A stretch of 64,000 nucleotides of DNA from Planctomycetota bacterium (GTDB lineage: Bacteria; Planctomycetota; Planctomycetia; JALXBF01), in assembly GCA_026991575.1 (NCBI GenBank), contig JALXBF010000033.1, positions 1-64,000 of the forward strand. Reading direction: 5' to 3'. The number at the start of each line of letters is the position of its first letter. The first letter of the stretch is position 1. A program made the position numbers and the translations under genes. Positions 6,579-60,636 of this stretch are shown piece by piece. Under the pieces are notes generated by a model. That model saw nothing but the letters and a program-made list of their open reading frames with translations, had not been told where the DNA came from and made no database searches.

Positions 6579-7937
6579 TTACTTGCTGCAGCCTGCGGCA
6601 GCGTGATCGTGGCCGCCGCAGCCGAAGTGGAACAGGCCGTGCAAGGCGCTGACCAGGTCGAGACCGCAAGGGGCGGCGCAAGGCTCGCAAGGTTCAGCCT
6701 CGACGCAGACCCGTTCGGGAACCAGGCGGCAGACCTGCACGGGCACCTTCTTCTTAACCAGCTTCGGGACGCAGCGGACCACTTTCACGGGCACCTCTTT
6801 CTTGACACGCACTGGGACACGGCGGGTGACGGTGACCGGCACCTTCTTGGCGATGCAGACGGGCACCTTGCAGGTGATCTCTTCCTCGACCCATCGGCAG
6901 ACCTTCACCGGCACCTTCTTGACCCGCTCTTCCTCGACCCATCGGCAGACCTTCACCGGCACCTTCTTGGTGATCGTCTCGACCTTCCGCTCGCAGATGG
7001 TCACAGGCACCTTCTTGACGCATTCCTGCTTCACCCAGCGAATCCGCTTGACGGGCACCTTCTTGACCCGCTGCTCTTTCACCAGGCGGCAGACTTTGAC
7101 CGGTACCTGCTCCTTGACCACGCGGCGTTCGTAACGCACCCGCTTGACCTTTTCCTTGACGGTCTTAACCACAGGCACGCGGCGGACGATCTTGCGACCG
7201 GGGATCGTGCACTTGACCAGCTTGGTCTCGCCGGGGATGTAGACGGGCAGGAGGGTGCAGGGATCGATCGTGAAGCAGCCGGGCTCGCGCACGCACCGAG
7301 TCACCTCGCGCGGCGGGCACTCAACCACTTCCTCTTTCCACTCGCACACCTTCCGCTCAACTTCCACTTCCTCTTCCACCGGCACGCACTCAACCCTGCA
7401 GACCTCACGCATCTGGGTCTCGATCACGGGCTTGAGCACCGTGTAGCAGATCTCCTTCTCGACGGTCTCGACCACCGGCTTGCATACCGTGTACCGCACT
7501 TCCTTCTCGATCGTACGATACACCGGCTTCACCACGCACTGGGTGATCTCCTTCTCGATCGTCTCGATCACCGGCTTACGGACCGTGTACCGCACCTCCT
7601 TGTAGACGGTCTCGAACACCGGACGGCGGACCTTCTTCTTGACCTCCTTGTAGCCCAGTTCATACTCGGTCCGGTAGCAGGTGACCTGCTCTTCTTTCCA
7701 CTGGGTCTCGTAGACCGTTTTCATGCAGGTCGTTTCCTGCTTTTCCCAGACAACCTCGCAGACCTCACGTTCCTCGGTCTCGACCACGCGCTTCCAGCGG
7801 ATGAAACAGTGCTTGTGCGGCTGTGGCGGTGTACAGTCGTAGCTGACTGCCCCGAAGAAGGCAGCGTTGGCTGGTTTGCCGGTCAGGACCGCCCCCGCCA
7901 CGACGGCGACCACCGGCACCCACAGAAGTCGCTTCAT
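6579..7937 (-). CDS. Secreted Cys-rich repeat protein with YTV- and KVPV-type repeats (planctomycete cell-wall-like)
   Basis: Signal peptide; repeats such as VRYTVRKPVIETIEKE / VRYTVCKPVVETVEKE / ICYTVLKPVIET, then KKVPVKVCRWVEEE repeats; many Cys; C-terminal GCGGHDHAAAGCSK. Confidence 0.85.
   Translation of the reverse strand: MKRLLWVPVVAVVAGAVLTGKPANAAFFGAVSYDCTPPQPHKHCFIRWKRVVETEEREVCEVVWEKQETTCMKTVYETQWKEEQVTCYRTEYELGYKEVKKKVRRPVFETVYKEVRYTVRKPVIETIEKEITQCVVKPVYRTIEKEVRYTVCKPVVETVEKEICYTVLKPVIETQMREVCRVECVPVEEEVEVERKVCEWKEEVVECPPREVTRCVREPGCFTIDPCTLLPVYIPGETKLVKCTIPGRKIVRRVPVVKTVKEKVKRVRYERRVVKEQVPVKVCRLVKEQRVKKVPVKRIRWVKQECVKKVPVTICERKVETITKKVPVKVCRWVEEERVKKVPVKVCRWVEEEITCKVPVCIAKKVPVTVTRRVPVRVKKEVPVKVVRCVPKLVKKKVPVQVCRLVPERVCVEAEPCEPCAAPCGLDLVSALHGLFHFGCGGHDHAAAGCSK
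6879..6969. repeat. Near-identical 48-bp direct repeat inside the KVPV region
   Basis: ctcttcctcgacccatcggcagaccttcaccggcaccttcttg occurs at about 6879 and again at about 6927. Confidence 0.85.
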
Positions 7938-19416: not shown

Positions 19417-20816
19417 CGGGGTCAACCACGGCCGCGGGTAGTTGGGGGCGGGTCCGCACGGACGACCGGGAAGCGGGGCGTTTGGAACGGAGCCCTGCTC
19501 GAATGCGCAGCCCCCGGCCTTGCGTGGCGCCATTCCCGATGGCCTGCACCACCTGGCGGTACCCCTTGTGCAACTTCTCGTCCCCAGTGGAACCGTCCAG
19601 GAGGGACACCGATGTGGGAGATCCACGCCATCAGGTTCGGACGGTGCGGGGGCCCATTTCGGCTTTCGCGCAGGCCTAGTAGGTCCGTCGTCTCGATGGG
19701 ATCCAATTCCGTCCGGGCTGTGGACACCGCCGGATGAAGCAGGCTGGGGCCGATCACGACGCACCGATGTGGTGCGTTCTCGCACAAGCTGAGTTGCACC
19801 CTACGCATGAAAGGGTACTTTGGAGTTCGTTGCTACGATCTGTTTGAGTGTTGCCATCCAGCCTTTGCGGAGCAACAGACGGCCGATCCGGGTCTCACTC
19901 TGCGGAAGGCCTGAATCAGGCCCAATAGTCTTGCGGTTACGAACCCAGCGCGTACGCGACACAGCTGAACGTAGACGCTGTCCCGCGGTGGCTTAAGACG
20001 GGGGAAACAGCCGTCTGCTGAACTGGCGGTCTTGGACTTACTCGCGCGACTCGTTCTGGATAGCTTGCCGGGGCGACCGCACCCGTGCGTGGGCCGTTGT
20101 CACCGCTCGGGCTCGCTGTGGTGTCGTTGAAGCCTGTGGTGGTTCGGCACGGACCGGCGCGCAGAGGTTGGAGGAGCTGGTCGAAGGCATAGAAAGCTGG
20201 GCTATGACAAGCCTGTTCCCCGCTTGAGGTTCTTTTTCCGTGGACAGAGCCTCTGCCCACCGCTACGTTCCGCCGGGGGGTTGCTTAAGGGGCCGGCCCG
20301 CAGGGAACTGTGGCTAGAACCGCTATGAGACGGGGCCCTCGTTTCCGACGTCTTGTCGGCGGTAAACTGCCACTTCGACCGCGCTCTCTGCGGCGCGGCC
20401 GGGTGAGTCGCGGGTGGCGCGAGGAGCAGGAGAGTCATGCCCGGTGTGCCGATAGGAACAGCGGGAGGAGATCAGAGGGACCGACAGTGGGTTTCGCGAA
20501 ACCTGCACGTCGCGGTGGTGTCCGGCTCATCGTGCTAGCCGGCCCAACCGCGGCGCAACGGGCGCTTCGGGACACCGTCCGGAAAAAGGCGGTTCCGCAA
20601 CCTGTCTAGCCAGACTCCTCCATCCAGGCAGCCTCAATCGCGGCAACTCTTCAATCAGGCTGCCGTTGAGATCACGGTGGGGCCTAACTACCAGCTACTG
20701 GGCGGCTCGTAAGGACCGACTGGATGCGGCGAATACATAGTGTGGGGTGGAGACGGAGCGTGGGCACGCTGCCATGCCCGATTCGACCGGAAAGCTACGC
20801 CGGGGGCCGAAGAATG

Positions 20817-21995
20817 CGTAGCACAACACGCGTCGCAATATGCCTGTGGCCTCTGTTGATCGCGCAGGCTCCAATTGGTGCGGTTTATGGGCAAGAGCAT
20901 GGCGCGGGTGCGGACAGCGCAGAGCTGTCACTGGACCGTGTGCTCGACGCTCACGAGGCGACGGTGGCGGCCGTGCAGCGGGTCTGGGCGAAGGCGGAGA
21001 TGCAGGTGCCGCGGCCCGGCGGCGGCTGGAAACCGGTCCTGTGGCTAGAGTGGGCTCGCGATGGCAGCATCGAGCGGTTCCGAACGCTCCGACCCGATCC
21101 CGAAAACCCGGAGGGACGCATCGTGGAAAGTGACGAGCTATTCCGCGGCACGCAGGTCTGGCGGCGGATACGCCGCATCCCTGGTGGCGCCGGCCAGAAC
21201 GCGGGGCTGGCCAGCGCCGAAGAAGCCTACAGGTACCTCATCGAACCAGCAGCAGGAAGAAATCTCCCGCACCCCAATCTTCCTGAGGCCCTTTTGCTCC
21301 GATTGGCTGACCCTCAAGGCCGTTTCCCAGGTGTTACCCTTCGTGAGCTGGTTCGTGCGTTTGCGGAAAAGCAGGGCCGCGTCGCGCTTTCTTCTGCGGA
21401 GAAGGCAGTTTCGATCAGCCTGATACCGAAAGACGCAACTGCGGCCGGAATAAAGAAGGTAGAGATCGAGCTTGACCCGCAGGCTGGCTACCTTGTGCGC
21501 AAAGTAGTCTGGCACATGCCGGCTGCCGACGAAGGCGAGCCCGCACACGACTGGCAGTATCAGCTGGAAGTGGTCCGATTCGATGGAGATGACGCCGGGG
21601 CGTACTTGCCCGTTGAGGTGCATTCAACGAACACTGCGACGGATCCGGCCAGTCATGCCCGGCTCGTAGTCACCGAACTCGTGCTCAATGAGCCGCTTCC
21701 GAACGAAGCCCTCGATTTCAGGATTCCTGCCGGCACTGTTGTCGGTTACTTCGACACACCTGACGGTAAACCACGCATTGCCGTGTGGGGAGCGAATAAC
21801 AAGCCGGAGAGGTTCTTTTCCAAGCTTGCCGATTTCCAACGGTACCTCGAGTCACAAGAAGCAGCCAGAGCAGGTGGTGGGTCTGCGTTTGGAACGGCCG
21901 CCATTCTGGGCCTGTTGATGGCCGTTCTCCTTTGGTTGGCTTACCGCCGACGCGACAGGCAGGACAGCCGTTCGGGTTCTGCCGCCGGCACTTGA
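20817..21995 (+). CDS. Secreted LolA-like protein with C-terminal TM and Arg-rich tail (cassette A, member 1)
   Basis: Signal peptide MRSTTRVAICLWPLLIAQAPIGAVYGQ; beta-rich body; C-terminal GTAAILGLLMAVLLWLAYRRRDRQ. ORF opens at 20724 but the signal peptide suggests this internal start. Confidence 0.65.
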   Translation, partial: RSTTRVAICLWPLLIAQAPIGAVYGQEHGAGADSAELSLDRVLDAHEATVAAVQRVWAKAEMQVPRPGGGWKPVLWLEWARDGSIERFRTLRPDPENPEGRIVESDELFRGTQVWRRIRRIPGGAGQNAGLASAEEAYRYLIEPAAGRNLPHPNLPEALLLRLADPQGRFPGVTLRELVRAFAEKQGRVALSSAEKAVSISLIPKDATAAGIKKVEIELDPQAGYLVRKVVWHMPAADEGEPAHDWQYQLEVVRFDGDDAGAYLPVEVHSTNTATDPASHARLVVTELVLNEPLPNEALDFRIPAGTVVGYFDTPDGKPRIAVWGANNKPERFFSKLADFQRYLESQEAARAGGGSAFGTAAILGLLMAVLLWLAYRRRDRQDSRSGSAAGT

Positions 21996-22179
21996 GCTTC
22001 TCGGGGGCTGATCTGAGCCAGGCGGGCTCCAGCGTCTCATACGCGGCCAGCTGAGGCAGCCGTTGCGCTCGACGGACGAGTCGCCTTGGGTCTTGGGCGG
22101 ATAGCCAGCTGTCGATGCTGTGGTTCAGGGCGAGAGCTGGGGTTAGGGACGTAGCTGAGCCCCAAGGACCTCATGACCG

Positions 22180-23316
22180 GTGGGGGCGATAGGCATGTGC
22201 CAGCCGCCGAGACAAACCTCGCTGTCAAAGTGGCTCGTCGGCATGGCTACGGCCAGAAACATACTTGTGCCGGCCACACTGATAGCGAGCGCCATGCTTG
22301 CATGGTGGGCTGCCCCAAGGGTGATTCCCGGGCTGGGTCTCTCCGTCAGACCTGCTGTGGACAGAGCCGGCCCGTGGACTGTCCAGCAGTTCAGCGACCT
22401 AGAGGTGCCCTTCGAGGTGTTTAATCGCACATGGTACAGCGTCACTCTTGTCGGAGTTGACTTGCCGTGTGGCGTGCGATCATGCTCCCTGTTCCGCGAT
22501 GGCCGCAACCCCGTCAGCACCCCCGCTCTGATACCGCCTGGCAGTCGTTTGACGGGAAACGTTCGCATTGAGAGCTCCGGGAGAACCGGCTCTGTACTAG
22601 TACCGGTCCAGTTCCGCTTCCTGGTGGGAGGTTTCGTGATATACGAACGACTGCAGATTCCTATCACGGTCTACGCTGCCTTATCGGTTAATCCGTGGCG
22701 GATCAACTTCGATTTCAGAGTCGGCAATAAGGATGTCCAACGGAGCCGAATCGTGATCGAGGCCAGATCGGAAGACCTGCTGCCTTTGTCTGTGGTAGCG
22801 AAACCGCGCTTCCTCGCTGTGGAGGCTTTCCAGAGGCCCCCTGCCGGTGCGGCGACGCATTCTGAGCTCCGACGTGCCGTGGTGGTTGTGCGCTGCGTAC
22901 GCCCAGGTCCGACCTGGGAAGGAGCCGTGTCGGGTTGTGTGGTGTTGCGCTTCAAGCATCCGCACCTGCGGTCGCTGCGCATCCCGGTAGTGTGCTTCGT
23001 ACCGCGAGCGAGAGTCGAGTATCGGCCACACGTGCTATGGATCGCTCCCCATGAGGTCGGGCAGGCGGTGACCAGACGGGTATGGTTCCGAGTGCGGCGC
23101 GGCGTGCGCATTCGCCTCCTGCAGTTGCCCAGGTGGGCAAAGGTTCGCCTCAGACAGGTAACTTCCGACGAGGTTGTCGCCACGGTTTCCTTGCGGTATC
23201 CCGGGTCCGGGCCACGTAGCAGTAAACTGACCTTTGTTGCCCAGGACGATGGTCAAGAAACGCTTCTGGAAGTTCCGATTCGGCCTGTTGCCGACACGAG
23301 CACCGACGCAAACTAG
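22180..23316 (+). CDS. DUF1573-like protein (cassette A, member 2)
   Basis: WTVQQFSDLEVPFEVFNRTWYSVTLVGVDLPCGVRSCSLFRDGRNPVSTPALIPPGSRLTGNVRIES, the typical DUF1573 layout; N-terminal hydrophobic segment. Confidence 0.65.
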   Translation: MGAIGMCQPPRQTSLSKWLVGMATARNILVPATLIASAMLAWWAAPRVIPGLGLSVRPAVDRAGPWTVQQFSDLEVPFEVFNRTWYSVTLVGVDLPCGVRSCSLFRDGRNPVSTPALIPPGSRLTGNVRIESSGRTGSVLVPVQFRFLVGGFVIYERLQIPITVYAALSVNPWRINFDFRVGNKDVQRSRIVIEARSEDLLPLSVVAKPRFLAVEAFQRPPAGAATHSELRRAVVVVRCVRPGPTWEGAVSGCVVLRFKHPHLRSLRIPVVCFVPRARVEYRPHVLWIAPHEVGQAVTRRVWFRVRRGVRIRLLQLPRWAKVRLRQVTSDEVVATVSLRYPGSGPRSSKLTFVAQDDGQETLLEVPIRPVADTSTDAN

Positions 23317-23323
23317 CCATTGC

Positions 23324-25066
23324 ATGGCGGCGCACCGACGGTGCACGCAGCGGCGCGGCCCCGTCGAGGCCTGGGTGCTCGTTTTCCTCGTCTTGTCCCA
23401 CGGCCTGCTCCTGTGGTACTCCGTCCACATCCATGGGCCCGTCTACGACGAAGAGGGCCATCTTGTCGCTGGTCTCAGGCACTGGCTGGAGGCGAACTTC
23501 GTGCCCTATCACCAGGATCCCCCCTTTGTGCGATTGCTCGCCACAGGGCCCATAGTCGCGTTCACGAGCCGGGAACACATCAGCATGCTGGTAAGCCCGG
23601 AGTCAGGGGCCAGTCTTCTCGGCAGCCCGTTCGAGGTATCACCGGGGCTGGCAAGGGGTTGGCTGCGCACGGCGCGAAAGGTGTGTACCCTTTTTTCCGT
23701 TGCCGGTCTCTTGGGCTGCTACGTGTGGGCTCGTTCCCTCGCACGCTCCCCTGTAGCGGGCTTGGTCGCAGCGGCGACCTGGGCGTACAGCCCGCTTGTG
23801 CTGGCCAACGGGTCGCTGTTCCTGGAGGACGTGCCGTGCGCAGCGCTCAGCCTTTGGGCTGCGATTGCTTTCGATCGATGGTACCGGCAGCGTACCGTGG
23901 GGGCGGCCGCAGCGGCCGGATTGCTCGTTGGGCTGGCCCTTGCCACGAAGTTCACCGCAGTCTTGGTCTTGGCCGCGTTGCTTCTTGCCTGGCTTGCCCT
24001 GCTGGTCCTGGACCGGCGCCGGCCACGCCTCCAGGACACGATCGATCTGGCCCTCCTGTTGACCATTGCGCTGTTCACGGTCAACGCTATGTATGCCTTC
24101 AAGGATAGCTTCGTGCGTCTGGACCGGTTTCGATTTACCAGCCGCCTTCTGGCCGGGCAGAGACCGCAAGACCAGCAGGGTGGCAATCGCTTCGCCAGTT
24201 CGTGGCTTGGACGTCTGCCTGTGCCGGTCCCTGCGCAGTATCTCATCGGGATGGATTTCCAGAGGAGGGAGTTCGAGCGGAAATACTGGTCCTACCTGCG
24301 TGGCGAGTGGAGGCTTGGCGGCTGGTGGTACTTTTACCTGTACGCCTTGAGTGTCAAGGAACCCATCGGTACCCTCGGGCTGCTCATCCTGGGGGGGCTG
24401 GCCGGGCTCCGACAGCTTACCGCGAACTACAGACTCAGCTGGGTGATTCTCCCGGCGGTCGTTGTGTTGGCGATCGTCAGTGCGCACACGGGCATCAACC
24501 GCCACGTTCGCTATGTCCTCCCGGCTATTCCCTTTCTGATCGTCTTGGCGAGCGTTGGCCTGGCACAGCGCGCTACCACCCAGTGGCTGGCAGCTGCCCT
24601 GTGTAGTCTTTCCGCTGCCGCGACGCTCTACGTTGCCCCTCACTTCCACGCCCATTTCAACCTGCTTGCAGGAGGCCCATCCAATGGGCCCCGGCACCTG
24701 CTCTTCAGTGCGATCGACTACGGTGAGGACCTGCTCGTACTGGCCCGTTGGCTGAGGCGGCATCCAGCGATTGTCCTTGATGGCGTCACCTGCGAACCGA
24801 ACGTGACGCGGCCGTCATGGCACGGGCTGCCTGACCGGAGTCCGCCAGCTGTCGTCGAACGACTCCGTCCAGGCTGGTACGCGGTCACGGTGATGACGCT
24901 GTACTACCGAGACCCCAGGTGGAAGTACTTCAGGATGCTCAAACCTTATCGCCAGTTTGGGTGGACGGTGTACCTGTACCGGGTGACTACCCAGGACATT
25001 CGGCGGCTACGCGCCGTCGCCGGATCGAACGGCTCCCGACCGTTCCCTGGCGATAGCGTGCCATAG
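23324..25066 (+). CDS. Multi-TM glycosyltransferase (GT39/ArnT-like) (cassette A, member 3)
   Basis: GPVYDEEGHLVAGLRHW; YWSYLRGEWRLGGWWYFYLYALSVKEPIGTLGLLI; many TM helices. Start MAAHRR preferred over 23234, which overlaps the upstream gene. Confidence 0.75.
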   Translation: MAAHRRCTQRRGPVEAWVLVFLVLSHGLLLWYSVHIHGPVYDEEGHLVAGLRHWLEANFVPYHQDPPFVRLLATGPIVAFTSREHISMLVSPESGASLLGSPFEVSPGLARGWLRTARKVCTLFSVAGLLGCYVWARSLARSPVAGLVAAATWAYSPLVLANGSLFLEDVPCAALSLWAAIAFDRWYRQRTVGAAAAAGLLVGLALATKFTAVLVLAALLLAWLALLVLDRRRPRLQDTIDLALLLTIALFTVNAMYAFKDSFVRLDRFRFTSRLLAGQRPQDQQGGNRFASSWLGRLPVPVPAQYLIGMDFQRREFERKYWSYLRGEWRLGGWWYFYLYALSVKEPIGTLGLLILGGLAGLRQLTANYRLSWVILPAVVVLAIVSAHTGINRHVRYVLPAIPFLIVLASVGLAQRATTQWLAAALCSLSAAATLYVAPHFHAHFNLLAGGPSNGPRHLLFSAIDYGEDLLVLARWLRRHPAIVLDGVTCEPNVTRPSWHGLPDRSPPAVVERLRPGWYAVTVMTLYYRDPRWKYFRMLKPYRQFGWTVYLYRVTTQDIRRLRAVAGSNGSRPFPGDSVP

Positions 25067-43740: not shown

Positions 43741-45624
43741 CTAAGGGCCGGTGTCATCTCGGAGAACCCGTCGCGAGTGAAGCGGGGGCTGCTGTGGCTG
43801 GTGCGGTGAGCACGCCGTCGAACCCCCGCCGTGGGCCTTGCCGCTGTTGATGACAGAGGCCGCCCGCAGCTGGCGGGCTGTGGCCGCATCGATGCGGTAA
43901 ATCCATAAGCTGGGCGTGATACGCCAGGTGGGCTCCATCAGGAAGAAGTAGTGATAACGCCGCTCCGGATCCATCAGCGCAGCTACTGATACCGCGTATG
44001 TACCCGCCCGCGGCTCGTCTGCCAACTGCTCAGTCAGCGGCCCTGACGGCCCGATTGGGACATATTCGTCGTCGACCTTGAGTCCCAGAGCGTTCGCAAC
44101 GCCATAAGCTACCGATGAACCGAGCAGTGCGCCGTCCAACTGTACGTCCGGATGCGACGCTAACCATCGTGTCAAGAAAGGAACGTCCTGTTCCCATGTC
44201 AGGGCGCTGCCGTGAAGATGCCGCCAGCCTTCTTCTGGGCCCCCAGCTATCTCGTTGAAGTAGCTCTCACAATGGGGGAACCAGCGGAGCCCGGAAGCTG
44301 TTCCCGCGGCCACGCAGGCCCAAACCAGCAAACGCCACCATCGGCTTTGCCCGCCTCCTGCCAGACAAGCCCCGGCACAGGTGAACAAGAACGGCAGGGC
44401 CGGCATCACATAGCGGTAATGGGCATTGAAGCCACGCTCTGCGCTGACCACTGCAAACACAGCCGCGGCAGGCAGTACCAGACAGCAAACCGTTCGTGCC
44501 GTCGCGCGCCGGGTCAGCAGCAGGACGAGCCCCGCGAAGACGAGGACAAGTGTGCCGAGCGTTTCCTTGACGAGGAATGCATAGACGTAGTAGTGGTACC
44601 AGCCAAGGAACCGGTACTCGCCCCGTAAGTACGACCACTGGCCCCGGTCGAAATCGACCTTTTGGATATCGATTCCCCGCACATAGTCTGCCGGCAACGG
44701 CACCGGCAGCATACCGAGGACGGTACCCCGAAATCGGTTTCCCGGCGTTGAGCACTGAGGATCGTCGGACGCGGCCAAAAAGCGCGAGAGAAAACTGTAG
44801 TCACCCAACCGGACCCCTACCCCGCGGAACGAGTACGCCGCGTTGATGACCAGTAGGCTTATTGCCAGGAAAGCGACGAACTGCGCGCTTGATCGAGCGA
44901 TCCGCTGTTTGCCCGCCGTCAGCAGCACGGCCAAGAAGCTGACCGGGTACAGCACTAGCAACGTGAACTTGGCAAGCTGGGCGATACCCATCGTCACCCC
45001 GGCCGCTATCGCATCTCTCCATGCGCAGTGTTCCGTCCAGCGGTAGACCGTGTACATGGCTGCCAGACCCAGGCCAGCGGCGACGCCATCGGGCGCAACC
45101 CAGGTGTAGGAGAGAACAGTCGGACTGAAGCAGTAGAGGATAACCGCCAACAGGCCAGCTTCGTTGCCCCACAACTGGCTGGCCCACTGCCATGCCACCC
45201 ATGGACCGATCAGATACAGCGGCAGTACGGCCAGCCGGGCCAGTCGGTGCATCAGCAGAAACTCGTTGCCTGCATGCACCGCAAGGTTGGGCATGTAGTA
45301 GTACTCGGGCCGCAGAGCAACAAGACCCGGGTGCTTTTCTCCCCGCGGTTCGGTCGGCCGAGTCCTGTGGTAGTCAGCTGGCAGGCTGCGCGCCGTTTCG
45401 GTCCAGAGCACGGCTAGCGCCCCGACCATCCGAACCAGTGGTGGATTGACCCGGTATGGCGTATAGTCCCCGTCGCGCCAATGGATGATGCCCGCTGCCA
45501 GGTGGCCTGGCTCATTGACCGTTGGCCCATGCAACCAGGCGGAAACAATGTAGCAGACGCTGTACGTTGCTAGGACGGCTGTGCCCAGCAGTCGATAGGC
45601 TCGTGACCGCCGATCTTGCTTCAT
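43741..45624 (-). CDS. Multi-TM glycosyltransferase (GT39-like), paralogue of 23324..25066 (cassette B, member 3)
   Basis: GPTVNEPGHLAAGIIHWRDGDYTPYRVNPPLVRMVG; QWSYLRGEYRFLGWYHYYVYAFLVKETLGTL; CESYFNEIAGGPEEGWRHL aligns by eye to HAHFNLLAGGPSNGPRHL of the other copy. Confidence 0.8.
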   Translation of the reverse strand: MKQDRRSRAYRLLGTAVLATYSVCYIVSAWLHGPTVNEPGHLAAGIIHWRDGDYTPYRVNPPLVRMVGALAVLWTETARSLPADYHRTRPTEPRGEKHPGLVALRPEYYYMPNLAVHAGNEFLLMHRLARLAVLPLYLIGPWVAWQWASQLWGNEAGLLAVILYCFSPTVLSYTWVAPDGVAAGLGLAAMYTVYRWTEHCAWRDAIAAGVTMGIAQLAKFTLLVLYPVSFLAVLLTAGKQRIARSSAQFVAFLAISLLVINAAYSFRGVGVRLGDYSFLSRFLAASDDPQCSTPGNRFRGTVLGMLPVPLPADYVRGIDIQKVDFDRGQWSYLRGEYRFLGWYHYYVYAFLVKETLGTLVLVFAGLVLLLTRRATARTVCCLVLPAAAVFAVVSAERGFNAHYRYVMPALPFLFTCAGACLAGGGQSRWWRLLVWACVAAGTASGLRWFPHCESYFNEIAGGPEEGWRHLHGSALTWEQDVPFLTRWLASHPDVQLDGALLGSSVAYGVANALGLKVDDEYVPIGPSGPLTEQLADEPRAGTYAVSVAALMDPERRYHYFFLMEPTWRITPSLWIYRIDAATARQLRAASVINSGKAHGGGSTACSPHQPQQPPLHSRRVLRDDTGP

Positions 45625-46772
45625 TCCTGATCGCTCCCGTGCGGCTGCTGCCGGGTACGGCCGCGAGCAGTGTCCATGTTGGCACGGATGTGAATTTGTA
45701 GCGTATCGGAGTTACCTGCGGCATCTCGCACGATGATGGTCACCGCGTGTACACCACGGGGCACCGAGCGCAGACGTAGTGTCATCCGGTGAGTCGCTCG
45801 GTATTCGTCCGCGGTCGGGCAGTCCAAAGACAACCACTCTTCGGCTGCCGACGGCATCAGCACACGCACGGGACGAACCGCTTGGATCGTTACGCGCCGC
45901 CGGGATTCGTCGTCCTGGCCGGCAACTGCCGTAATCATGCGGGGCGTGACCTTGGCCAGCCCGGCGGTCGACAGGCGGATCGACTGCTCATCCATCCATG
46001 GGCCGTACCCGAAGCGTAAGCGGCAACGCTGCCCCGGATGCAGATCTGCGGCGGCAAGCTTGACTGTCAGGCGGCCGCGCCACGCCCGATAGTGGACGGG
46101 CCGTTCACGCCACTCGGTGAACGCGGCCACGACGGCGGAGGGACCGTAGAACTCCCAGTCAGCCCATCGTGCTTCGATCCACGGCTTGGCCTCCGGGATC
46201 GTTTCATCCAGTGTGTAGTAGACGCGCAGCTCGATTGGAACGGTCCCACCGGGGATGAACCGTTGTTGCGTTAGCGGACCACGAACACCGACCAGTTCTA
46301 GCCGAGGGAAAGCGACTGTCCGCACGATGCACCGCTTTTCGAGTCGCTCAGAGCCAGCCTGGACCTCAACCACTGCGGATTGCTCGGTGATGCCAGAATC
46401 GCCAGTAACACGAAACGCAAGCTCGAGCCTGGCCGTCTCGCCCGGTGCCAGTACTTTGGGACTGAGGTTGACCGAGAGGCAGGTACAACTGAGCTTCTTG
46501 AGGCGTGCGATACACTTCGAGCCGAAAGGGTTCGGCACCTCAAAGGTCGCCTGAAGGTCACGGTGTTGGTTCGGGTCAAGGACGAACGGGCCGAGCTCGT
46601 CGAGATCCACGGTCTGCCAGTCTTGATGGATGTCCACAGTGGCTTCTCGACCGCCGCACCCGGAAAGCATCGTTATGGCTGCGGATGCGCACGACACCCC
46701 GAACGCCCACGAGAGAAATACCCGGAACGGTCGCGCCCACGTTCGCATGGCTCTGCACTCGCTCGATCCCAA
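45621..46772 (-). CDS. DUF1573-like lipoprotein (cassette B, member 2)
   Basis: Lipobox-like LSGC; LGPFVLDPNQHRDLQATFEVPNPFGSKCIARLKKLSCTCLSVNLSPKVLAPGETARLELAFRV; 4-nt overlap with the downstream GT. Confidence 0.8.
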   Translation of the reverse strand: MGSSECRAMRTWARPFRVFLSWAFGVSCASAAITMLSGCGGREATVDIHQDWQTVDLDELGPFVLDPNQHRDLQATFEVPNPFGSKCIARLKKLSCTCLSVNLSPKVLAPGETARLELAFRVTGDSGITEQSAVVEVQAGSERLEKRCIVRTVAFPRLELVGVRGPLTQQRFIPGGTVPIELRVYYTLDETIPEAKPWIEARWADWEFYGPSAVVAAFTEWRERPVHYRAWRGRLTVKLAAADLHPGQRCRLRFGYGPWMDEQSIRLSTAGLAKVTPRMITAVAGQDDESRRRVTIQAVRPVRVLMPSAAEEWLSLDCPTADEYRATHRMTLRLRSVPRGVHAVTIIVRDAAGNSDTLQIHIRANMDTARGRTRQQPHGSDQE

Positions 46773-46795: not shown

Positions 46796-48022
46796 TCAGC
46801 CACGGCCGCGTAGCCAGCGGTAGACGCGCAACCCTGCCAAGACCGCGGCGGCGGCGAGCAGTGTGAGCGCGAGGATCAAGGGGCGGCGGTATGGGGATCC
46901 CGCGACGCCGCTTCCCTGTCGACCGAGTTGGTCCACGCGAGGCCACCGGATCGGTTTCGCATCCAGTTTCGCCGGTTCAAGAATGTCTTCGGCGGCAAGC
47001 CTGGCCAGGTCGAGAACGTTGTCGGAAGGGTATCGGGCCAGACCAACGGGCGGTTTACGGCCGCGCAGATCGATGCGGAAGTCCTCGGGGTTGGCCGGCG
47101 GTAAGGGGCGGTCCGTCAGTTCGAATACTCGTGCGGACACAGTCCCCTGGCCATCTTCGTCGTAGGACAGCTGAATCCACTCCAGAGGAATCGGTACATC
47201 CCCCTCTGACAACCGGCCAGGCATGTCAAGCATGTGATGAGTCTCACCTCCGCTCGTTAGCGCGACCGACAGCCGATCCAGTACGAAGTACTCTCCATGG
47301 CGCACCAGCACAAACTCAACTGTCTCAGACATAGACTCCGCATCGCCGCTACCACCGAGCCCGATTCGCCGGACGAACCGGTAGCGCACTTGGTCAGGCC
47401 CCCCATCTCTTGCTGCGTCCAGGTACTCGATGCGCCGTCCGGTCTCACCAAATCGCAGCGACCGAACACGACGCCATCCTGTGGCCAGCACCGGCCATGC
47501 CCACGCTACGTGATCTGCCGCGTGGATTAGAGGGTAACGCTGCACGCGGATAAGCCGGTCCAGATCGTTGTCTATGACGAAGATGAGTTCGTCGGGTTCT
47601 ATCCGGAACAGGTGGAGCATCCACACGCGCCGGCCGGCCCGCGGTGGGGCCCCCGTGGCTCGCAAAGCGCGCGCCGGCACTGAGCGGCCTGTGCTTTCAT
47701 AGCGCACGAGGTCTCCGTCAACGGCCACAAAGCCTGAGGTGGCCTCACGCGGTGACTCCACCCACTCGAGCCGATCGGTAGCCGCACTACGCCCGACCAG
47801 CAACCGCCAGCGCGAGCGGAAACTCCATTGCGTGCGCCACTCGTCGAGTAAGCTCTGAAGCTCTTCGGCAAGGGCTGCAGCATGTCCGTCCAGCGACTTG
47901 GCCACTTGCCCAGCCCGCATGGCATCCGCGCCGGCTTCCTGGGCCGTGCACACTACGGGACGCGTGGCCTGCCACAGCAAGGCTAGCCAGGGCCCAAGGA
48001 GCCCAGCGATCCACCGTTTCAT
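46796..48022 (-). CDS. Secreted LolA-like protein with C-terminal TM and Arg tail (cassette B, member 1)
   Basis: Signal peptide MKRWIAGLLGPWLALLWQATRPVVCTAQ; C-terminus PLILALTLLAAAAVLAGLRVYRWLRGRG; same architecture and position as 20817..21995. Confidence 0.7.
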   Translation of the reverse strand: MKRWIAGLLGPWLALLWQATRPVVCTAQEAGADAMRAGQVAKSLDGHAAALAEELQSLLDEWRTQWSFRSRWRLLVGRSAATDRLEWVESPREATSGFVAVDGDLVRYESTGRSVPARALRATGAPPRAGRRVWMLHLFRIEPDELIFVIDNDLDRLIRVQRYPLIHAADHVAWAWPVLATGWRRVRSLRFGETGRRIEYLDAARDGGPDQVRYRFVRRIGLGGSGDAESMSETVEFVLVRHGEYFVLDRLSVALTSGGETHHMLDMPGRLSEGDVPIPLEWIQLSYDEDGQGTVSARVFELTDRPLPPANPEDFRIDLRGRKPPVGLARYPSDNVLDLARLAAEDILEPAKLDAKPIRWPRVDQLGRQGSGVAGSPYRRPLILALTLLAAAAVLAGLRVYRWLRGRG

Positions 48023-48254
48023 GGCCCGTCTCCCGTTCGGCTCATCACCCGTTCGATCTCGCACACCCCTCCTTCAATCGGATCCGAGCACACGACTCGC
48101 CCCCGGCAATTCTTGTCCTCGTAGCTTACCTGACCGAGATGGACGCGAGCAAAACGCCCGCTACCATCTGAGACCGACTCGACCTGAGCATGGCCGCATC
48201 TCCTACCAGAGAGGGCAGTTGCTGCCAACGCGTGTATTGTACGCCATAATCAGG

Positions 48255-48280
48255 ACACACACACACACACACACTGTCAA
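48255..48280 (-). promoter_or_regulatory. (AC)10 microsatellite abutting a TTGACA (-35-like) hexamer, upstream of cassette B
   Basis: Minus strand: ACTTGACA-(GT)10-CC-TGATTATGGCGTACAATACACG, ending about 230 nt upstream of the 48022 start. Confidence 0.6.
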
Positions 48281-48706
48281 GTGGTCCTGCAGGTGCGTGC
48301 CAGCTCTAGCGACAGGCCGTTTGTCGGGTGTCCCGGCTGGGCGGCCACGGAGGCGCACGCCCGGTCGGTGTCGCAGCTTCGGAACGGTGTACTGTTGCAG
48401 TCGGCCATTAGAACCGCTGCACTCGACAACTGTGCTGGCCAGACGCCCCGCCTGTGCCGGCAGCCAAGCCAGCCCCCGTTGCCGGGTAGGACGAGAACCC
48501 GCCACCATGACTTGCCCTCCACCGTTGGCATCGTACCCCATGATAGTGTGTGTGGGTCAACCTCCCATCATCGCTGCAAATAACGCCGCTCCCTGCGACA
48601 ACCCAGCACGTGCGATCGCACGGCTGACGCACTTGGAGGGATAGTTGGGCTGGGGAGAGAGGTTGCTCTGGAGCAGAGACGACGGCAGGATGTTTGGGAT
48701 TGAGGA

Positions 48707-51395: not shown

Positions 51396-52604
51396 TCATG
51401 CGCCGAAGCGACGGCGCAGCAGCCAGGCCGCCAGCAGAACCGCCACCCCACCCGTCCCGAGGCCGATGCTGAGCCAGGGAAGTTGACGGCCGCTCGGTGC
51501 AGACAGTGCGCCATCGGATACGGTTGTGGGCAGTTTCTCGGTATCAACCCAGGGGGCCGGTCCGGTGGGCGCGACCGGCAAGACGGGGCCGCCAGGTGGC
51601 GGGCCGTACCGTGCTGCCAGCGGGTCTGAGTCCGAGGTCTGCCGGACCGCATCCGGCGGCGGCGGAATCCGGAACGCGTCGTCCTGAAAGCCCACGTTCA
51701 CGCGCACCGAACGCCGGATGACGACCAACCGTCGGCTCATCTTTATCGTCCAGCGTTGTCCCGAGAGCTTCAGGGCGCCTGTTCCGTGCCATGGCATCGT
51801 CCACTCTGCACGCCACTGGCCCGGCACCCAGAGAGGCGGTCGCTGGTCGGACCAGTCAATTCGGTGCAGTTTGGTAAACTCCATCGGCTCAAACTCCAGC
51901 TCCTTGGTCACTTTCCCTGCTTCGCTCCTCGCTATGATCGCACGTCGTAGGACCACGGCGCGATCCACGTCAATCCACAGATGCTCGGCCGGCTCCGGCG
52001 GTTTCGCTGTGGCATCGGTCGCGCGAATGTACTGTTCTAGGCGGTGCTGGAAGATCGTTCGGTCGTACACGACCACACGGGCGCAGTTGGTCCCGCGCAC
52101 GCGCTCCCAGCCGATCAGTTCCACTGCGTAACGGTCAGGTTGAGCAGCGGCAATGAAGTGCTCAAACGGTATGCAGTATCCGATGCAGGCCATTTCGACT
52201 GCGGCTTGCGTGTGGTGCACCAATACCTTGCGCCCACCGCGTATGCCTTGGAACAGGAGTGTGTTCGTGCCACGCAACACGGCTGTCTCGGTATGCGTCT
52301 GTTCGGAGCCGCGCATGATATTGGTGCTCAGGTGGTACGCTCCGTCGTTGAAGCGCAGCCGGAATGAGCCAGTGATGGTTTCGTCGGCCTTTTCCGTAGG
52401 GCCTGCGGTCCGCCGCCACTCGTCGAACTCGAACTCCAAATCGACCAGTCCACGATACCGCTCTCGGAGGGTCGTCATCAGTGCCTGGCCGAGCTCAAAC
52501 CGGCGTGCCGGCGTGCTTTCCTGGTCGTCAGCCGCCGCTACCCGGTAAGCCGGCCACAGTATGAGCGGGACACACATCAGCCAGCAGAAGTTCACCCTCT
52601 TCAT
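51396..52604 (-). CDS. Secreted LolA-like protein with C-terminal TM and Arg tail (cassette C)
   Basis: Signal peptide MKRVNFCWLMCVPLILWPAYRVAAA; FELGQALMTTLRERYRGLVDLEFEFDEWRR; C-terminus WLSIGLGTGGVAVLLAAWLLRRRFGA. Confidence 0.7.
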   Translation of the reverse strand: MKRVNFCWLMCVPLILWPAYRVAAADDQESTPARRFELGQALMTTLRERYRGLVDLEFEFDEWRRTAGPTEKADETITGSFRLRFNDGAYHLSTNIMRGSEQTHTETAVLRGTNTLLFQGIRGGRKVLVHHTQAAVEMACIGYCIPFEHFIAAAQPDRYAVELIGWERVRGTNCARVVVYDRTIFQHRLEQYIRATDATAKPPEPAEHLWIDVDRAVVLRRAIIARSEAGKVTKELEFEPMEFTKLHRIDWSDQRPPLWVPGQWRAEWTMPWHGTGALKLSGQRWTIKMSRRLVVIRRSVRVNVGFQDDAFRIPPPPDAVRQTSDSDPLAARYGPPPGGPVLPVAPTGPAPWVDTEKLPTTVSDGALSAPSGRQLPWLSIGLGTGGVAVLLAAWLLRRRFGA

Positions 52605-52760
52605 TGCCTTTGCTCCTCCCACGACCGGCCCCCGTGTGGGCCCGTGCGCGATCGGTTCGTTGCTGCCCACCAGGCACAAGCTCAAGGGGTGCCACGCACG
52701 GGGTCACGTGCACCGCTGACCCGTGCGAGTGTCGTCTTGTGGGCCCAGGATTGGGTGCGA

Positions 52761-53144
52761 TCATCGGCCAGCCAGAGGCTGTTGCGTGACCAGTGCCAAA
52801 TCGTGGCAGGTAAAGGGGGTCAACCCCATGACGACACAGACGTTGTTTATGCACACGCCCCATACGACGGGGCCACAGATAAACGCTCCACTGACGATCC
52901 ATCCATTATCGCCCTGTCCAAACACCATCCTCGTGCCGGAACTGAACTGGCACTTGTAGCACGGCGCTGCAGGGCAATTCGGAACGAGTTGGTTCTGCGC
53001 ATCGCAGGACGATAGTTGGCAGCCTATGAGTGTGTCTGCGCGTGCAACGTCGCTCATGGACCACGAGTTGTAGCGAGGATCGTGGTCAGCACATACGATT
53101 AGAAAGACACCAGCTGCTAGCAGTCGAAGCGTGGTTCGCACCAT
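52761..53144 (-). CDS. Small secreted Cys-rich protein
   Basis: N-terminal hydrophobic signal; 9 Cys in the putative mature part (IGCQLSSCDAQNQLVPNCPAAPCYKCQ...FICGPVVWGVCINNVC...FTC). Confidence 0.6.
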   Translation of the reverse strand: MVRTTLRLLAAGVFLIVCADHDPRYNSWSMSDVARADTLIGCQLSSCDAQNQLVPNCPAAPCYKCQFSSGTRMVFGQGDNGWIVSGAFICGPVVWGVCINNVCVVMGLTPFTCHDLALVTQQPLAGR

Positions 53145-53154
53145 TTCCGTCCTC

Positions 53155-54246
53155 CTAAAAAGCAGCCGAGCGATCAGAAGCGGTCTCGTCGATTAGTTCT
53201 TCTCCGTCACGCGTGCCTAGAGCTCGCCAGACGCTCAGATCGATCGAATCGCTCACGAAGCGGACATGGCCGTCGGCGAACGCTACATTCACCCCGCCTG
53301 GGTGGGCGCTACGGGCCGTCACCGCACCGAACGTGTCCGCGGCCAAGCAGTCGGTTACCCGGGAGTTGGGCGGCAGCACGTGGTTGTACTGGGTGAACAA
53401 GGCACCGGAAAACATCCAGAACCGGCCTGCGTAAGGAAAGATCCTTTTCCGGGGCCGGCGGGTCAGATGCGCACAGATGCGTGCGTACTGCTCTGTCCGG
53501 TTGGGCAGAGGCACGGCGATGAAGTCGAGGATGTCTCGTTTCGGATGCCACCGCTCCGTGCGGAAGCCGACTCCCACCAGCCGCTCGCTTAAGGCTGCCG
53601 TGTACGTAAGTCCGTCGATGATGTGGTCGAATCTAATCGGCGGCCGACGGAAAACGCCGTGGCCACTGTCAGGCCAGCCTCGGCGCGTTGCGAGGTGGTC
53701 GAGGATACCCGTACAGCCGCGGTAGGAGACGTAACCGCCCGGGCCGGCATGCGGGTCGGCCGGGCAAAGGAACAGCTGCACGGTACTGTAGAGAATGGTG
53801 CGGTTTGCGAATACCCCGTATCCGGCCGCAGTATCGCTGAAGTGGTCCACGCGTAGGTTGATAGCGGTGTACAAGTCTTGTCTGCCGACATAAGGCAGCA
53901 GATGACACAGAAACGAGAACTCGCGTTGGACGCCCGGCGCAGAAAGGCCGATGTCGATCGTCGGTGCCCAGGATACGCTCAACGGCGGTACGATTCCGTG
54001 GGTGTCATGGTAGCGTGCGAGAGCAAGAGCGAGTTGACGCAGGTGGTTCTGGCACGATAGCCGGCGCGCCGCTGCTCGTGCGCGCTGGACGGCCGGCAGG
54101 ATCAGTGCAGCCAACACGCTCAGAATGCCTATGACGACCAGTAGTTCCACAATGCCAAGTCCTATGCGTGCCACGGGTAGTGGACGGCCGCAGGCGGCTG
54201 AACGGGTAGCGAGTCGTGGAATGCGGAGTTGTGCGCGTGTTAGCAT
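53155..54246 (-). CDS. DUF1559 pseudopilin-like protein (type II pseudopilin N-terminus, H-x9-DG motif)
   Basis: GIVELLVVIGILSVLAALILPAVQRARAAARRLSCQNHLRQLALALARYHDTHG; HPGGVNVAFADGHVRFV. Confidence 0.93.
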   Translation of the reverse strand: MLTRAQLRIPRLATRSAACGRPLPVARIGLGIVELLVVIGILSVLAALILPAVQRARAAARRLSCQNHLRQLALALARYHDTHGIVPPLSVSWAPTIDIGLSAPGVQREFSFLCHLLPYVGRQDLYTAINLRVDHFSDTAAGYGVFANRTILYSTVQLFLCPADPHAGPGGYVSYRGCTGILDHLATRRGWPDSGHGVFRRPPIRFDHIIDGLTYTAALSERLVGVGFRTERWHPKRDILDFIAVPLPNRTEQYARICAHLTRRPRKRIFPYAGRFWMFSGALFTQYNHVLPPNSRVTDCLAADTFGAVTARSAHPGGVNVAFADGHVRFVSDSIDLSVWRALGTRDGEELIDETASDRSAAF

Positions 54247-54298: not shown

Positions 54299-55378
54299 CT
54301 ATAACGAGCCGGCATCGACTGATTCCTCTCCATCGCGGGTACCCAGAGCACGCCAGACAGCCAGATTGATCGAATCGCTCACGAACCGGACATGGCCGTC
54401 GGCGAAAGCCACGTTTACGCCGCCCGGGTGCGAGCTCCGTGCCGTCGCGGCACCGAACGTGTCCACTGCCAGGCAGTCGGTGACCTGCGAGTTGGGCGGG
54501 AGCACGTGGTTGTATTGGGTAAACAGGGGCCCGGAGAAGATCCAGAAGCGACCCGCGTATGGGAAGATCTTCTTCTCGTCCCGGTGAGTTAGGCTGGCAC
54601 AGATGGCTGCATACTGCTCGGTCCGGTTGGGCAGCGGTACAGCCTGGAAATGGAGTATATCTCGCTGAGGACTCCGTCTTGCCTTCTGCAGGCCGACGCC
54701 GACCAGCCGTTCGCTCAGGGCTGCCGTGTACGTAAGCCCATCCGTGATGTGGTCAAATCGGATCGGGGGATAGCGAAAGAAGCCATGTCCACTGTCCGGC
54801 CAGCCCCGCCGTGCAGGGAACTCGTCGAGCACACCCGTGCAACCGCGATAGGAGACGTAGCCTCCAGGACCGGCCAGTTGGTCTGAGGGGCAGAGGAACG
54901 AACCCACCGTCGTGTGCAGGACAGTCCGGTTCGCCTGGACACCATATCCTGCACACTTAAAGCTGACGCCATCCACACGCAAGTTTAGGGCGCTGTAGAG
55001 GTCCGATCGGCCGATATAGGGTAGCAAGTGACAGAGGAACGAGAACTGACGCATCCTGCCCGGCCCTGAGAGGCCGATGTCAATCATCTCGTACCAGTCC
55101 ATGTGAAGAGGCGGTACGACTCCGTGCGTGTCATGGTACCGTACAACGGCTGCCACGAGTTGCCGGAGGTTGTTCTGGCAAGACAGCCGGCGCGCGGCTG
55201 CCCGTGCTCGCTGCACGGCAGGGAGCAGCAGTGCGACAAGAATGGTCACGATGCCGACAACGACCAACACTTCGACGACACCCAGAGCGCGGCGTCCGAT
55301 TCCGCGCACCGGGAGGTTCTTGCCCGCGCGGACAAGCGATCCTTTAGCGTGGGTGGCTTGCTGAGTGCCTGGAATCAT
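54299..55378 (-). CDS. DUF1559 pseudopilin-like protein, tandem paralogue
   Basis: GVVEVLVVVGIVTILVALLLPAVQRARAAARRLSCQNNLRQLVAAVVRYHDTHG; HPGGVNVAFADGHVRFVSDSINLAVWRALGTRDGEE, nearly identical to its neighbour. Confidence 0.93.
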   Translation of the reverse strand: MIPGTQQATHAKGSLVRAGKNLPVRGIGRRALGVVEVLVVVGIVTILVALLLPAVQRARAAARRLSCQNNLRQLVAAVVRYHDTHGVVPPLHMDWYEMIDIGLSGPGRMRQFSFLCHLLPYIGRSDLYSALNLRVDGVSFKCAGYGVQANRTVLHTTVGSFLCPSDQLAGPGGYVSYRGCTGVLDEFPARRGWPDSGHGFFRYPPIRFDHITDGLTYTAALSERLVGVGLQKARRSPQRDILHFQAVPLPNRTEQYAAICASLTHRDEKKIFPYAGRFWIFSGPLFTQYNHVLPPNSQVTDCLAVDTFGAATARSSHPGGVNVAFADGHVRFVSDSINLAVWRALGTRDGEESVDAGSL

Positions 55379-56462
55379 GACCCATCCCCGCTGTTCCCCG
55401 GAGCAGCAGAACTGGGAACCTCACTTCGCGCTGGGCTACTCCGCGAAGGGGAAGCCGAAACAGCGCCAGCGGCTCGGTCACCTTTGTGCAATCCAATCGC
55501 AGCTGGATTTCCCACTTGTCCGGCGCCACCTTCTGGCAAGCTTGCAATGCCATGCCCGCCGGAAGAGACCGTGGGACACCGACAGCAAACTCCTCGTCAT
55601 TACTGGCCACGAGCGTAAGCCGAACCAAGTGGCCCGGACAAGGGTCCCCGGGTGCACAGCGGGCAACCGTGCTGCTACTGGGACAGGTTCGGACCAGCGG
55701 GCGGACCTCCAGGGTCACCAACATCTCTGCCGTCCGATGCCCTTGAGAGACCCGAAAGGCGACGCTGCGGGTTCCTGGCATTGAAGGCATCGTGAGTTTC
55801 AGTTTCACGGGCCAGGCCACCTCGTGGATGGATCCGCGGAGATGTACGCCTTCTGGTGGCTCGCCAACTTCAAGAGAGGTCTTGGGTTCATCTGCCTCCA
55901 CAACGGGTATCGTGGCGGCGGCCGGTGGCTCTGACGGATCGTATCGCAGGATGAGTTTCCCGTTGCGCGCAACCTTCGCACCGGCGGGAGCTACGATTCG
56001 ATTGGTGCCATCCCCAACACGCAGCTCCGCCCACGGGAGTAACACTCCTTCAATCAACACCCGTTGCCGCCGCGTGGTTCCAGAGGCGTCACGCCACTCA
56101 ACGCCGACCCACGCCCGCTCCGGCTCCCAAGAGTGACTCAGACGAAGCGCCAGGTTTAGTTCTCCCGTTTTCCCAGGAGCCAATGTCAACTGGCCTTGCT
56201 CAACACGCAGACAGCAAGGCGAACTGACGGTAGCCACCCTGACTTCCACGGGAGAACGTGAATCGTTGAAGACCGGAACACGTATCGGCTCGATATGCAC
56301 GGGCTGGCCCAGCACTGGCCCAATGTCGATGTGCTGCGGTAACCGAATGCCGGGAGCGCGCTCTGACCGCTGCTGGCCCGTCCACTCACCGACACAACCG
56401 GCCATCGCAACGGCCCAAACGATGACACCGATTTGACGGCGCCGCCCAAACCGGGCGCCCAT
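55344..56462 (-). CDS. DUF1573-like lipoprotein (cassette C)
   Basis: Lipobox-like AMAGC; VPVFNDSRSPVEVRVATVSSPCCLRVEQGQLTLAPGKTGELNLALRL; 3' end overlaps the DUF1559 start by about 35 nt. Confidence 0.75.
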   Translation of the reverse strand: MGARFGRRRQIGVIVWAVAMAGCVGEWTGQQRSERAPGIRLPQHIDIGPVLGQPVHIEPIRVPVFNDSRSPVEVRVATVSSPCCLRVEQGQLTLAPGKTGELNLALRLSHSWEPERAWVGVEWRDASGTTRRQRVLIEGVLLPWAELRVGDGTNRIVAPAGAKVARNGKLILRYDPSEPPAAATIPVVEADEPKTSLEVGEPPEGVHLRGSIHEVAWPVKLKLTMPSMPGTRSVAFRVSQGHRTAEMLVTLEVRPLVRTCPSSSTVARCAPGDPCPGHLVRLTLVASNDEEFAVGVPRSLPAGMALQACQKVAPDKWEIQLRLDCTKVTEPLALFRLPLRGVAQREVRFPVLLLRGTAGMGHDSRHSASHPR

Positions 56463-56516
56463 GGCATCCTCCCCGAGATACCACAGTCTTGTCCCCTCCT
56501 GTGAACTATGTTAATT

Positions 56517-56546
56517 TGTGTGTGTGTGTGTGTGTGTGTGTGTCAA
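56517..56546 (-). promoter_or_regulatory. (TG)13 microsatellite abutting a TTGACA (-35-like) hexamer, upstream of cassette C
   Basis: Minus strand: CCTACTTGACA-(CA)12-AATTAACATAGTTCACAGGAGGGG, about 55 nt upstream of the 56462 start. Confidence 0.6.
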
Positions 56547-56979
56547 GTAGGTCGTGTGTTCGGATGCCGCCAGGTCTTGGCGCGACTGACCGCGTTCGAA
56601 CATCCCAGTCGGGTAGGTCCCGCCAAGGCTGCCAACTGACGCTTTGCCCACTAGGTAGGCCCTGCCAGCGGTAACGGGACGCACGAGTTGCCCCGGGGCC
56701 AGGCAGGGGAAGTGGGAATGGCAGGCCTTTCGTGTGACGGTCAGCAGGATTCGGGTCACCCCTTCCCAGCTCACGCACCTTCCGTGGTACCTTGGCTCTG
56801 GTGAGCTAACCGTTCACGGGGCGCACGTGGGTGGCGGGGCCCCTGAATGGAGGTGAGGTCGACCGGCGTGAGTAGCGCTTGATGACTCTTGGAAGATGTG
56901 AGGGTAGTCAGAGGCGTCACGCGGTAGTCTTGGGAAGAAGGCGTGGAGGTTGTCTCCCTTGGCGGTAGGCAACCAGTCC

Positions 56980-59368: not shown

Positions 59369-60636
59369 GTGCCGTTTCAACTAGAGAAGTTTCCCTCGCG
59401 GGGCGGGGCAGCGGGCAACCGCGCTTGCGGGACACGGAGGTTATGACGTAAAAAGGAGCCTCCACAGTGGGTGTCAAAGGGAGAAAACGTGGAGGCTCCA
59501 AGGATGGACAGAGTTCGTGTTCGTCGCTTGGCCCCGCCTGAGCGAAGGCGACTCCGTTCAATGAAACGTGCCAGAGGGAACGCTGTCAAGGCCAAACGCG
59601 CCGGCGTGATTCTACTCTCGGCAGAAGGTTGGAGCACAAGGGAGATCGCCCAGGGCGTGGGCTACACGGTGCAGTGGGTACGGAAGATCATTCATCGGTT
59701 CAATGAAGGAGGATTGAAGGCCATTGACTGGGACCCCGGTGCGGGGAAACGGGGCAGGAGGCGGAAGTTTTCCCCCAGAGTAATCCAGCGGATCGTCGAC
59801 ACAGCGCTGTCACCTCCGCAACAGCTGATCGGGATGACGCAGTGGTCCCTGGCGAAGCTGCGGCAGTACCTGATCGAACAGGGGATTGTCGAGGAGATCA
59901 GTCTGGAATGGTTGCGTCAGATCCTCAGACGTGCGGGCGTGCGCTTGAGGCGGACGAAAACCTGGAAGGAGTCGAAAGATCCGCACTTTGTGCAAAAGTC
60001 CCGCCGCATCGGTGGGTTGTACGAGAGGCGTCCTGAAGGCGGAAGGAGGATATGTGTCGACGAGTTTGGGCCACTGAATCTGGCGCCGCGGCCTGGCATG
60101 TGCTGGGAGCATGAGGGCAGCCGACGCCCGGGCCGGCTGCCGGCGACGTATCGCCGCGACGGCGGGGTGCGGCACTTGCTGGCCTTTTACGATCTGGAGA
60201 CAGGCCGGCTCGACGGCTGGTTCTACGAGCGAAAGAGAACGGATGAATTCCTCGATTTTCTGAAGCGGGTCCGGTCTCGTTATCCAGTGGAGGAGACCCT
60301 GCATGTGGTGCTGGACAACTACGGTCCCCATCTGAGTTCAAGGGTTCTGGAGTGGGCGGAGGCGAACAGGATGCTCTTTTACTTCACCCCGACCAATGCC
60401 TCGTGGCTGAACCGAATCGAGTGCCACTTTGCGGCGTTGAAGAAGTTCGCCCTTGCCGGATCGTACTATCGGTCCCATGGACAGCTCCAGGGGGCAATCA
60501 GGAGCTACCTGGCATGGCATAACGGCGAACGGCCGATTGCCTGCGGCAAACCCCGCACCGGACAACGCGCGAACCAGACTCGCCCCGATCGCAAGCGACC
60601 ACCAAGAAGGGGAAACTTCTCAACTTGAAACGGCAC
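59369..60636 (+). mobile_element. Intact IS630-family insertion sequence with imperfect TIRs and TA target duplication
   Basis: Left TA|GTGCCGTTTCAACTAGAGAAGTTTCCC, right GGGAAACTTCTCAACTTGAAACGGCAC|TA; TIRs match except 2 positions; encloses the full transposase ORF. Confidence 0.92.
59471..60628 (+). CDS. IS630-family transposase
   Basis: GWSTREIAQGVGYTVQWVRKIIHRFNEGGLKAI HTH; CVDEFGPLNLAPRPG; VVLDNYGPHLS; FTPTNASWLNRIECHFAALKKFAL (DDE). Confidence 0.95.
   Translation: MSKGENVEAPRMDRVRVRRLAPPERRRLRSMKRARGNAVKAKRAGVILLSAEGWSTREIAQGVGYTVQWVRKIIHRFNEGGLKAIDWDPGAGKRGRRRKFSPRVIQRIVDTALSPPQQLIGMTQWSLAKLRQYLIEQGIVEEISLEWLRQILRRAGVRLRRTKTWKESKDPHFVQKSRRIGGLYERRPEGGRRICVDEFGPLNLAPRPGMCWEHEGSRRPGRLPATYRRDGGVRHLLAFYDLETGRLDGWFYERKRTDEFLDFLKRVRSRYPVEETLHVVLDNYGPHLSSRVLEWAEANRMLFYFTPTNASWLNRIECHFAALKKFALAGSYYRSHGQLQGAIRSYLAWHNGERPIACGKPRTGQRANQTRPDRKRPPRRGNFST

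Follow-up and report, generated by a model that had tools for sequence, protein, structure and literature searches.

What does a long dinucleotide repeat do directly after a −35-like hexamer in a planctomycete genome, and could chance have placed it there? The question arises in a 64,000-nt stretch of contig JALXBF010000033.1 (the window), part of a draft assembly of 4.96 Mb in 191 contigs (G000; sites are named by contig, as in C28 or C63). Read directly from the sequence, minus-strand positions 56550-56508 are CCTACTTGACA-(CA)12-AATTAACAT, immediately upstream of an operon denoted cassette C (Table 1). The original prediction placed TTGACA and (CA)12 about 55 nt before the first gene of this cassette; the sequence matches, with 54 nt measured between the end of the repeat and the ATG at 56462. 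It also anticipated that seven CA units would set TAACAT 17 bp from the −35 hexamer, and removing five units from the present 27 bp does give 17 bp. The downstream gene, described there as DUF1573-like, is present, and Pfam does not assign DUF1573 to it. A phage search with this gene as query gave no match. An ORF beside cassette C (59471-60628, plus strand) reads like an IS630-type transposase.

A second repeat lies at 48.27 kb, where the minus strand reads GGACCACTTGACA-(GT)10-CCTGATTATGGCGTACAAT upstream of cassette B. The (CA)12 and (GT)10 tracts are by far the longest short-unit simple repeats in the window, and CACACACACA gives 14 overlapping matches there against 0.1 expected when dinucleotide composition is preserved. 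Cassette A (20724-25066, plus strand), a paralog of cassette B encoding an exported unknown protein and a PMT_2-type transferase, has no TTGAC+repeat promoter. The window also contains a 48-bp tandem repeat array at 7416-7653, possibly within a coding region.

Table 1. Promoter elements and genes of cassettes C and B, in window coordinates.
Feature	Position	Strand	Basis
−35-like hexamer TTGACA, cassette C promoter	56541..56546	-	sequence; 16-18 bp spacer peak of this genome for TTGAC..TAnAAT
(CA)12 repeat, longest CA/GT tract in genome	56517..56540	-	sequence, genome tract search
−10-like hexamer TAACAT; spacer now 27 bp, would be 17 bp with 7 units	56508..56513	-	sequence
First gene of cassette C, exported protein, DUF1573-like	55344..56462	-	30% identical to first gene of paralogous C122 cassette; no Pfam hit
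DUF1559 (SBP_bac_10) pilin-like protein, cassette C	54299..55378	-	Pfam
Second DUF1559 protein, cassette C	53155..54246	-	Pfam
Small exported Cys-rich protein, cassette C, 127 aa, 10 Cys	52761..53144	-	sequence
Exported unknown protein with C-terminal membrane helix, cassette C (LolA-like in original prediction)	51396..52685	-	no Pfam hit
Third, weaker site TTGACC-CACACACAC-TATCAT, spacer 9 bp	48540..48560	-	sequence
−35-like hexamer TTGACA, cassette B promoter	48275..48280	-	sequence
(GT)10 repeat, cassette B promoter	48255..48274	-	sequence
−10-like hexamer TACAAT, cassette B, spacer 33 bp; weaker alternative box GATTAT at 23 bp	48236..48241	-	sequence
Exported unknown protein, cassette B (LolA-like in original prediction)	46796..48064	-	no Pfam hit
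DUF1573 protein, cassette B	45621..46772	-	Pfam
PMT_2-type glycosyltransferase, cassette B	43741..45624	-	Pfam

Across the genome, CA/GT tracts of at least five units number ten, and those of at least seven units occur at three places: the two window sites and C28:17471. The latter reads ACTTGAC-(TG)8-TAGACT and lies directly 5′ of a MauE gene followed by genes for a Cys-rich small protein and an exported unknown protein. All three of these longer tracts sit directly after TTGAC, an adjacency with a chance of P ~0.003 per tract at the TTGAC base rate of the window. A search for TTGACWSWSWSWSWS (TTGAC followed by alternating W/S bases) returned 7 genome matches versus 1 for the reversed control, six of them upstream of operons of the cassette type and one inside a coding frame. 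TTGAC followed by 15 purines gave 9 matches in G000 versus 0 for the control, eight of which are repeats upstream of such operons. The pyrimidine-tract pattern TTGACNY14 had no matches in G000. The AG, GAA and GGA versions of the repeat first came from regions upstream of DUF1573 paralogs, and each of the four (GGA)≥5 tracts of the genome likewise comes directly after TTGAC, in the same promoter slot. The co-occurrence of TTGACA and a repeat is far from chance, and the enrichment proposed at the outset, upstream of DUF1573/DUF1559/LolA-like operons, is strongly positive for both patterns.

Pattern searches and paralog loci, including the shorter copies of the C63 array, together yield 16 sites in G000 (15 clear and one weak, at 48560 of the window) on ten contigs, with a simple sequence repeat between −35 and −10 hexamers; a further 9 were found in relatives. 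The units at the 16 sites are CA (AC), GT, TG, GA (AG), TC, GAA and GGA. As the search used named patterns and chosen stretches, repeat types that were not searched could be missed.

All 16 sites precede operons of one type, whose parts are a small exported Cys-rich protein, MauE, DUF1573-like proteins, an exported unknown family (340-490 aa, with a C-terminal membrane helix), Peptidase_C39, DUF1559 and a PMT_2 transferase. Export is inferred from N-terminal signal-like segments judged by eye, from the Cys-rich small proteins and from Pfam matches to DUF1559, MauE, PMT_2 and C39 peptidase; location was not measured. No Pfam hit identifies the ~340-490 aa operon protein as LolA, and with a mean pLDDT of 48 its structure model does not allow a fold search. 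Where DUF1573 genes stand alone in a different context, at C88, C116 and C35, there is no repeat. Membrane-anchored Peptidase_C39 domains occur beside Cys-rich proteins at C118 and C74, one of them fused to DUF1573, hinting at leader cleavage or maturation.

Ordinary promoter-like pairs supply the spacing rule. TTGACN{10,26}TANAAT has 26 matches in the genome versus 9 for the control, with spacers of 16-18 bp in 21 of the 26 (binomial P ~4e-12); a sigma-70-like rule therefore holds in this genome. The common −10 among these pairs is TAGAAT, and the boxes that follow the repeats are TAGACT, TAGCAT, TAAGAT, TAACAT, TATCAT or GATAAT. Spacers at dinucleotide sites are 9, 15, 15, 15, 19, 27 and 33 bp, all odd; those at trinucleotide sites are 11, 11, 14, 14, 20, 29 and 35 bp, all 2 mod 3 with the exception of site C39. 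Whole-unit changes can reach 17 bp at nearly all sites and also pass through the optimal 16-18 bp range. The exceptions in G000 are site C39, where the repeat is interrupted and the spacer of 19 bp has no whole-unit path to 17, and C104, which lacks a clear −10 box. Seven sites stand one unit from 17 bp, five short (C6, C28, C122, C63a, C74a) and two long (C151, C118). No site has a spacer clearly of 16-18 bp in the assembly (C104 has one only via a weak box), and therefore nearly all of these promoters would be weak or off. The −10 boxes were picked by eye and later by simple rules, and those of C104, C33a and G045d are weak or ambiguous. The 17-bp phase could also be an inheritance from ancestral 17-bp promoters without present function.

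Repeat number differs between closely similar paralogs. The tandem copies at C74 carry 10 and 5 GGA units with a downstream identity of 293/300, and the three copies at C63 carry 12, 4 and 4 units with an identity of 287/300 between the first 12- and 4-unit pair. These differences were seen between paralogs only, not within a population or between strains, and could be old. In the homologous operons at C104 (AG) and C151 (TC), whose DUF1573 proteins are 46% identical, the repeat is kept in the same slot and the unit differs. Both C63 and C74 are tandem arrays of near-identical Cys-rich-protein operons with their own GGA promoter per copy; the mature Cys-rich parts diverge, and the leaders and promoters are almost identical.

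Among 59 relatives, perfect-repeat sites were found only in G045 (CALFAY01, an uncultured planctomycete), among the matches listed. This genome has TTGAC(AC)n at five sites, with TAGACT after the repeat at four, and its readable operons encode a Calx-beta-like or pilin-like early gene product, MauE, a Cys-rich protein and an exported protein. In one G045 paralog the −35 has decayed to CTGACA and the repeat is broken. In G220 and G223, two genomes of the same family, operons for Cys-rich and exported proteins are preceded by TTGACA(GT)n with a spacing of 19 bp (three sites) and by TTGACA(CA)n with one of 11 bp. Judged from sequence, a second planctomycete family (G045, G220, G223) has the same architecture before similar operons. 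A short dispersed repeat (~35 bp, dozens of copies) lies just upstream of the CA promoter in G045.

We consider it probable, in the absence of expression or read data, that these sites are phase-variable promoters at many loci, switched by slippage in the spacer as in hifAB and porA. This reading rests on the position and phase of the repeats, the conserved boxes, the confinement of long repeats to the slot and the differences in unit number between near-identical paralogs. The repeat would fill the space between −35 and −10 in a sigma-70-type promoter (TTGACA, repeat, TAnnnT or GATAAT), where replication slippage would add or remove whole units. At 16-18 bp the operon would be transcribed, and at other lengths the promoter would be weak or silent. 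With ~16 such switches acting independently, each in front of one operon that encodes an exported Cys-rich protein together with maturation and surface machinery, a clonal population would become a mosaic of surface or secreted phenotypes. Control of transcription by length, reversible switching within a population and a cell-surface location of the products are inferences. With less assurance, we lean towards a repeat-unit-agnostic contingency system, in which ~16 independent spacer-slippage promoters each gate one paralogous exported Cys-rich-protein operon, new units arise repeatedly in the slot, and most switches stand at least one unit from ON. If true, this amounts to combinatorial bet-hedging in a phylum with large genomes that is not known for such behaviour.

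The off-optimum spacing at most sites, together with the G045 paralog with its CTGACA −35 and broken repeat, would also fit neutral slippage, in which promoters that are little used or in decay put up with changes in spacer length, and repeats grow there without selection as switches. We regard this as unlikely, because repeats of several unrelated units have appeared in this one slot, no long CA/GT or GGA tract lies elsewhere in the genome, TTGACA is preserved and most sites retain a −10-like box, the homologous C104 and C151 operons retain a repeat despite differing units, the downstream genes are open, and the design recurs in two families. The original argument from two window repeats for function over random slippage is supported, and the phenomenon is broader than those two repeats: it extends to 16 sites, to units other than CA/GT and to a second family.

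Even less weight falls on the repeats as spacers that do not switch and act through DNA structure (Z-DNA, flexible or purine-rich DNA), or as sites bound by a dedicated sigma factor or regulator. Z-DNA can form in CA/GT tracts, and the purine strand is the coding strand at all GGA/GAA sites found, but CA, GA, TC, GGA and GAA have no structural property in common, length differs widely between near-identical copies, and the flanking boxes match the ordinary promoter of the genome. The Z-DNA version was rejected because GA, GGA and TC units occur as well. Mis-assembled repeats or coincidental TTGACA adjacency can be set aside almost entirely: absolute repeat counts may be collapsed in a draft of 191 contigs, so exact lengths stay in doubt, but the existence of the sites is secured by their number on ten contigs, matched controls near zero and recurrence in three other assemblies.

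Spacer slippage has precedent in the Haemophilus influenzae hifA/hifB fimbrial promoter, where (TA)n lies between −35 and −10 (PMC2651432, PMC3899988). As there, a dinucleotide repeat occupies the spacer, unit slippage would shift the spacing through an optimum and genes for exported, putative surface products lie downstream; unlike that single divergent promoter with one unit in a small-genome pathogen, the present set comprises ~16 promoters with six or more kinds of unit, trinucleotides among them, in a planctomycete of 5 Mb that belongs to another phylum. The length of a poly-G spacer repeat likewise sets transcription of an outer-membrane protein from the Neisseria meningitidis porA promoter, although porA is a single gene with a mononucleotide tract. 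In nadA (TAAA) and hmw1/2 (heptanucleotide), promoter repeats lie outside the spacer, and repeat number sets surface-protein expression, as proposed here. The mycoplasma vlhA genes, a large paralogous family, each carry one GAA promoter repeat whose number sets surface-protein expression. The nadA, hmw1/2 and vlhA repeats space regulator sites or sit upstream of the core promoter, whereas those described here separate the two core hexamers. Phase variation driven by repeats is described as typical for the surface genes of pathogens with small genomes (PMC11475388), and we found no published planctomycete case of such promoters in the literature searched, from which most subscription journals are missing. 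Its probable occurrence at many loci of an uncultured planctomycete of ~5 Mb suggests that the same stochastic switching can be selected outside hosts, by phages, predators or competitors. The sites offer a ready map of exported proteins under such diversifying pressure and a natural series of spacer-length variants for one promoter type.

Beyond these genomes, a scan of 84,980 species for TTGAC(AC)5..TAGACT returned only CALFAY01 (G045), in a set from which G000 itself may be missing. A DNA search for a G065 ortholog gave a match near a contig end, and no repeat promoter was identified there. Class-wide, the CA pattern matched in 8/398 genomes, five of them outside such operons or unclear; the matches in G303, G317, G370 and G386 look incidental. 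The fifth, at G334:C17:6542 in another family, has a long CA tract after TTGACA and then, with a spacing of 28 bp, TAAAAT; the gene downstream is possibly PEP-CTERM-like, and this site may be an independent case of a repeat promoter.
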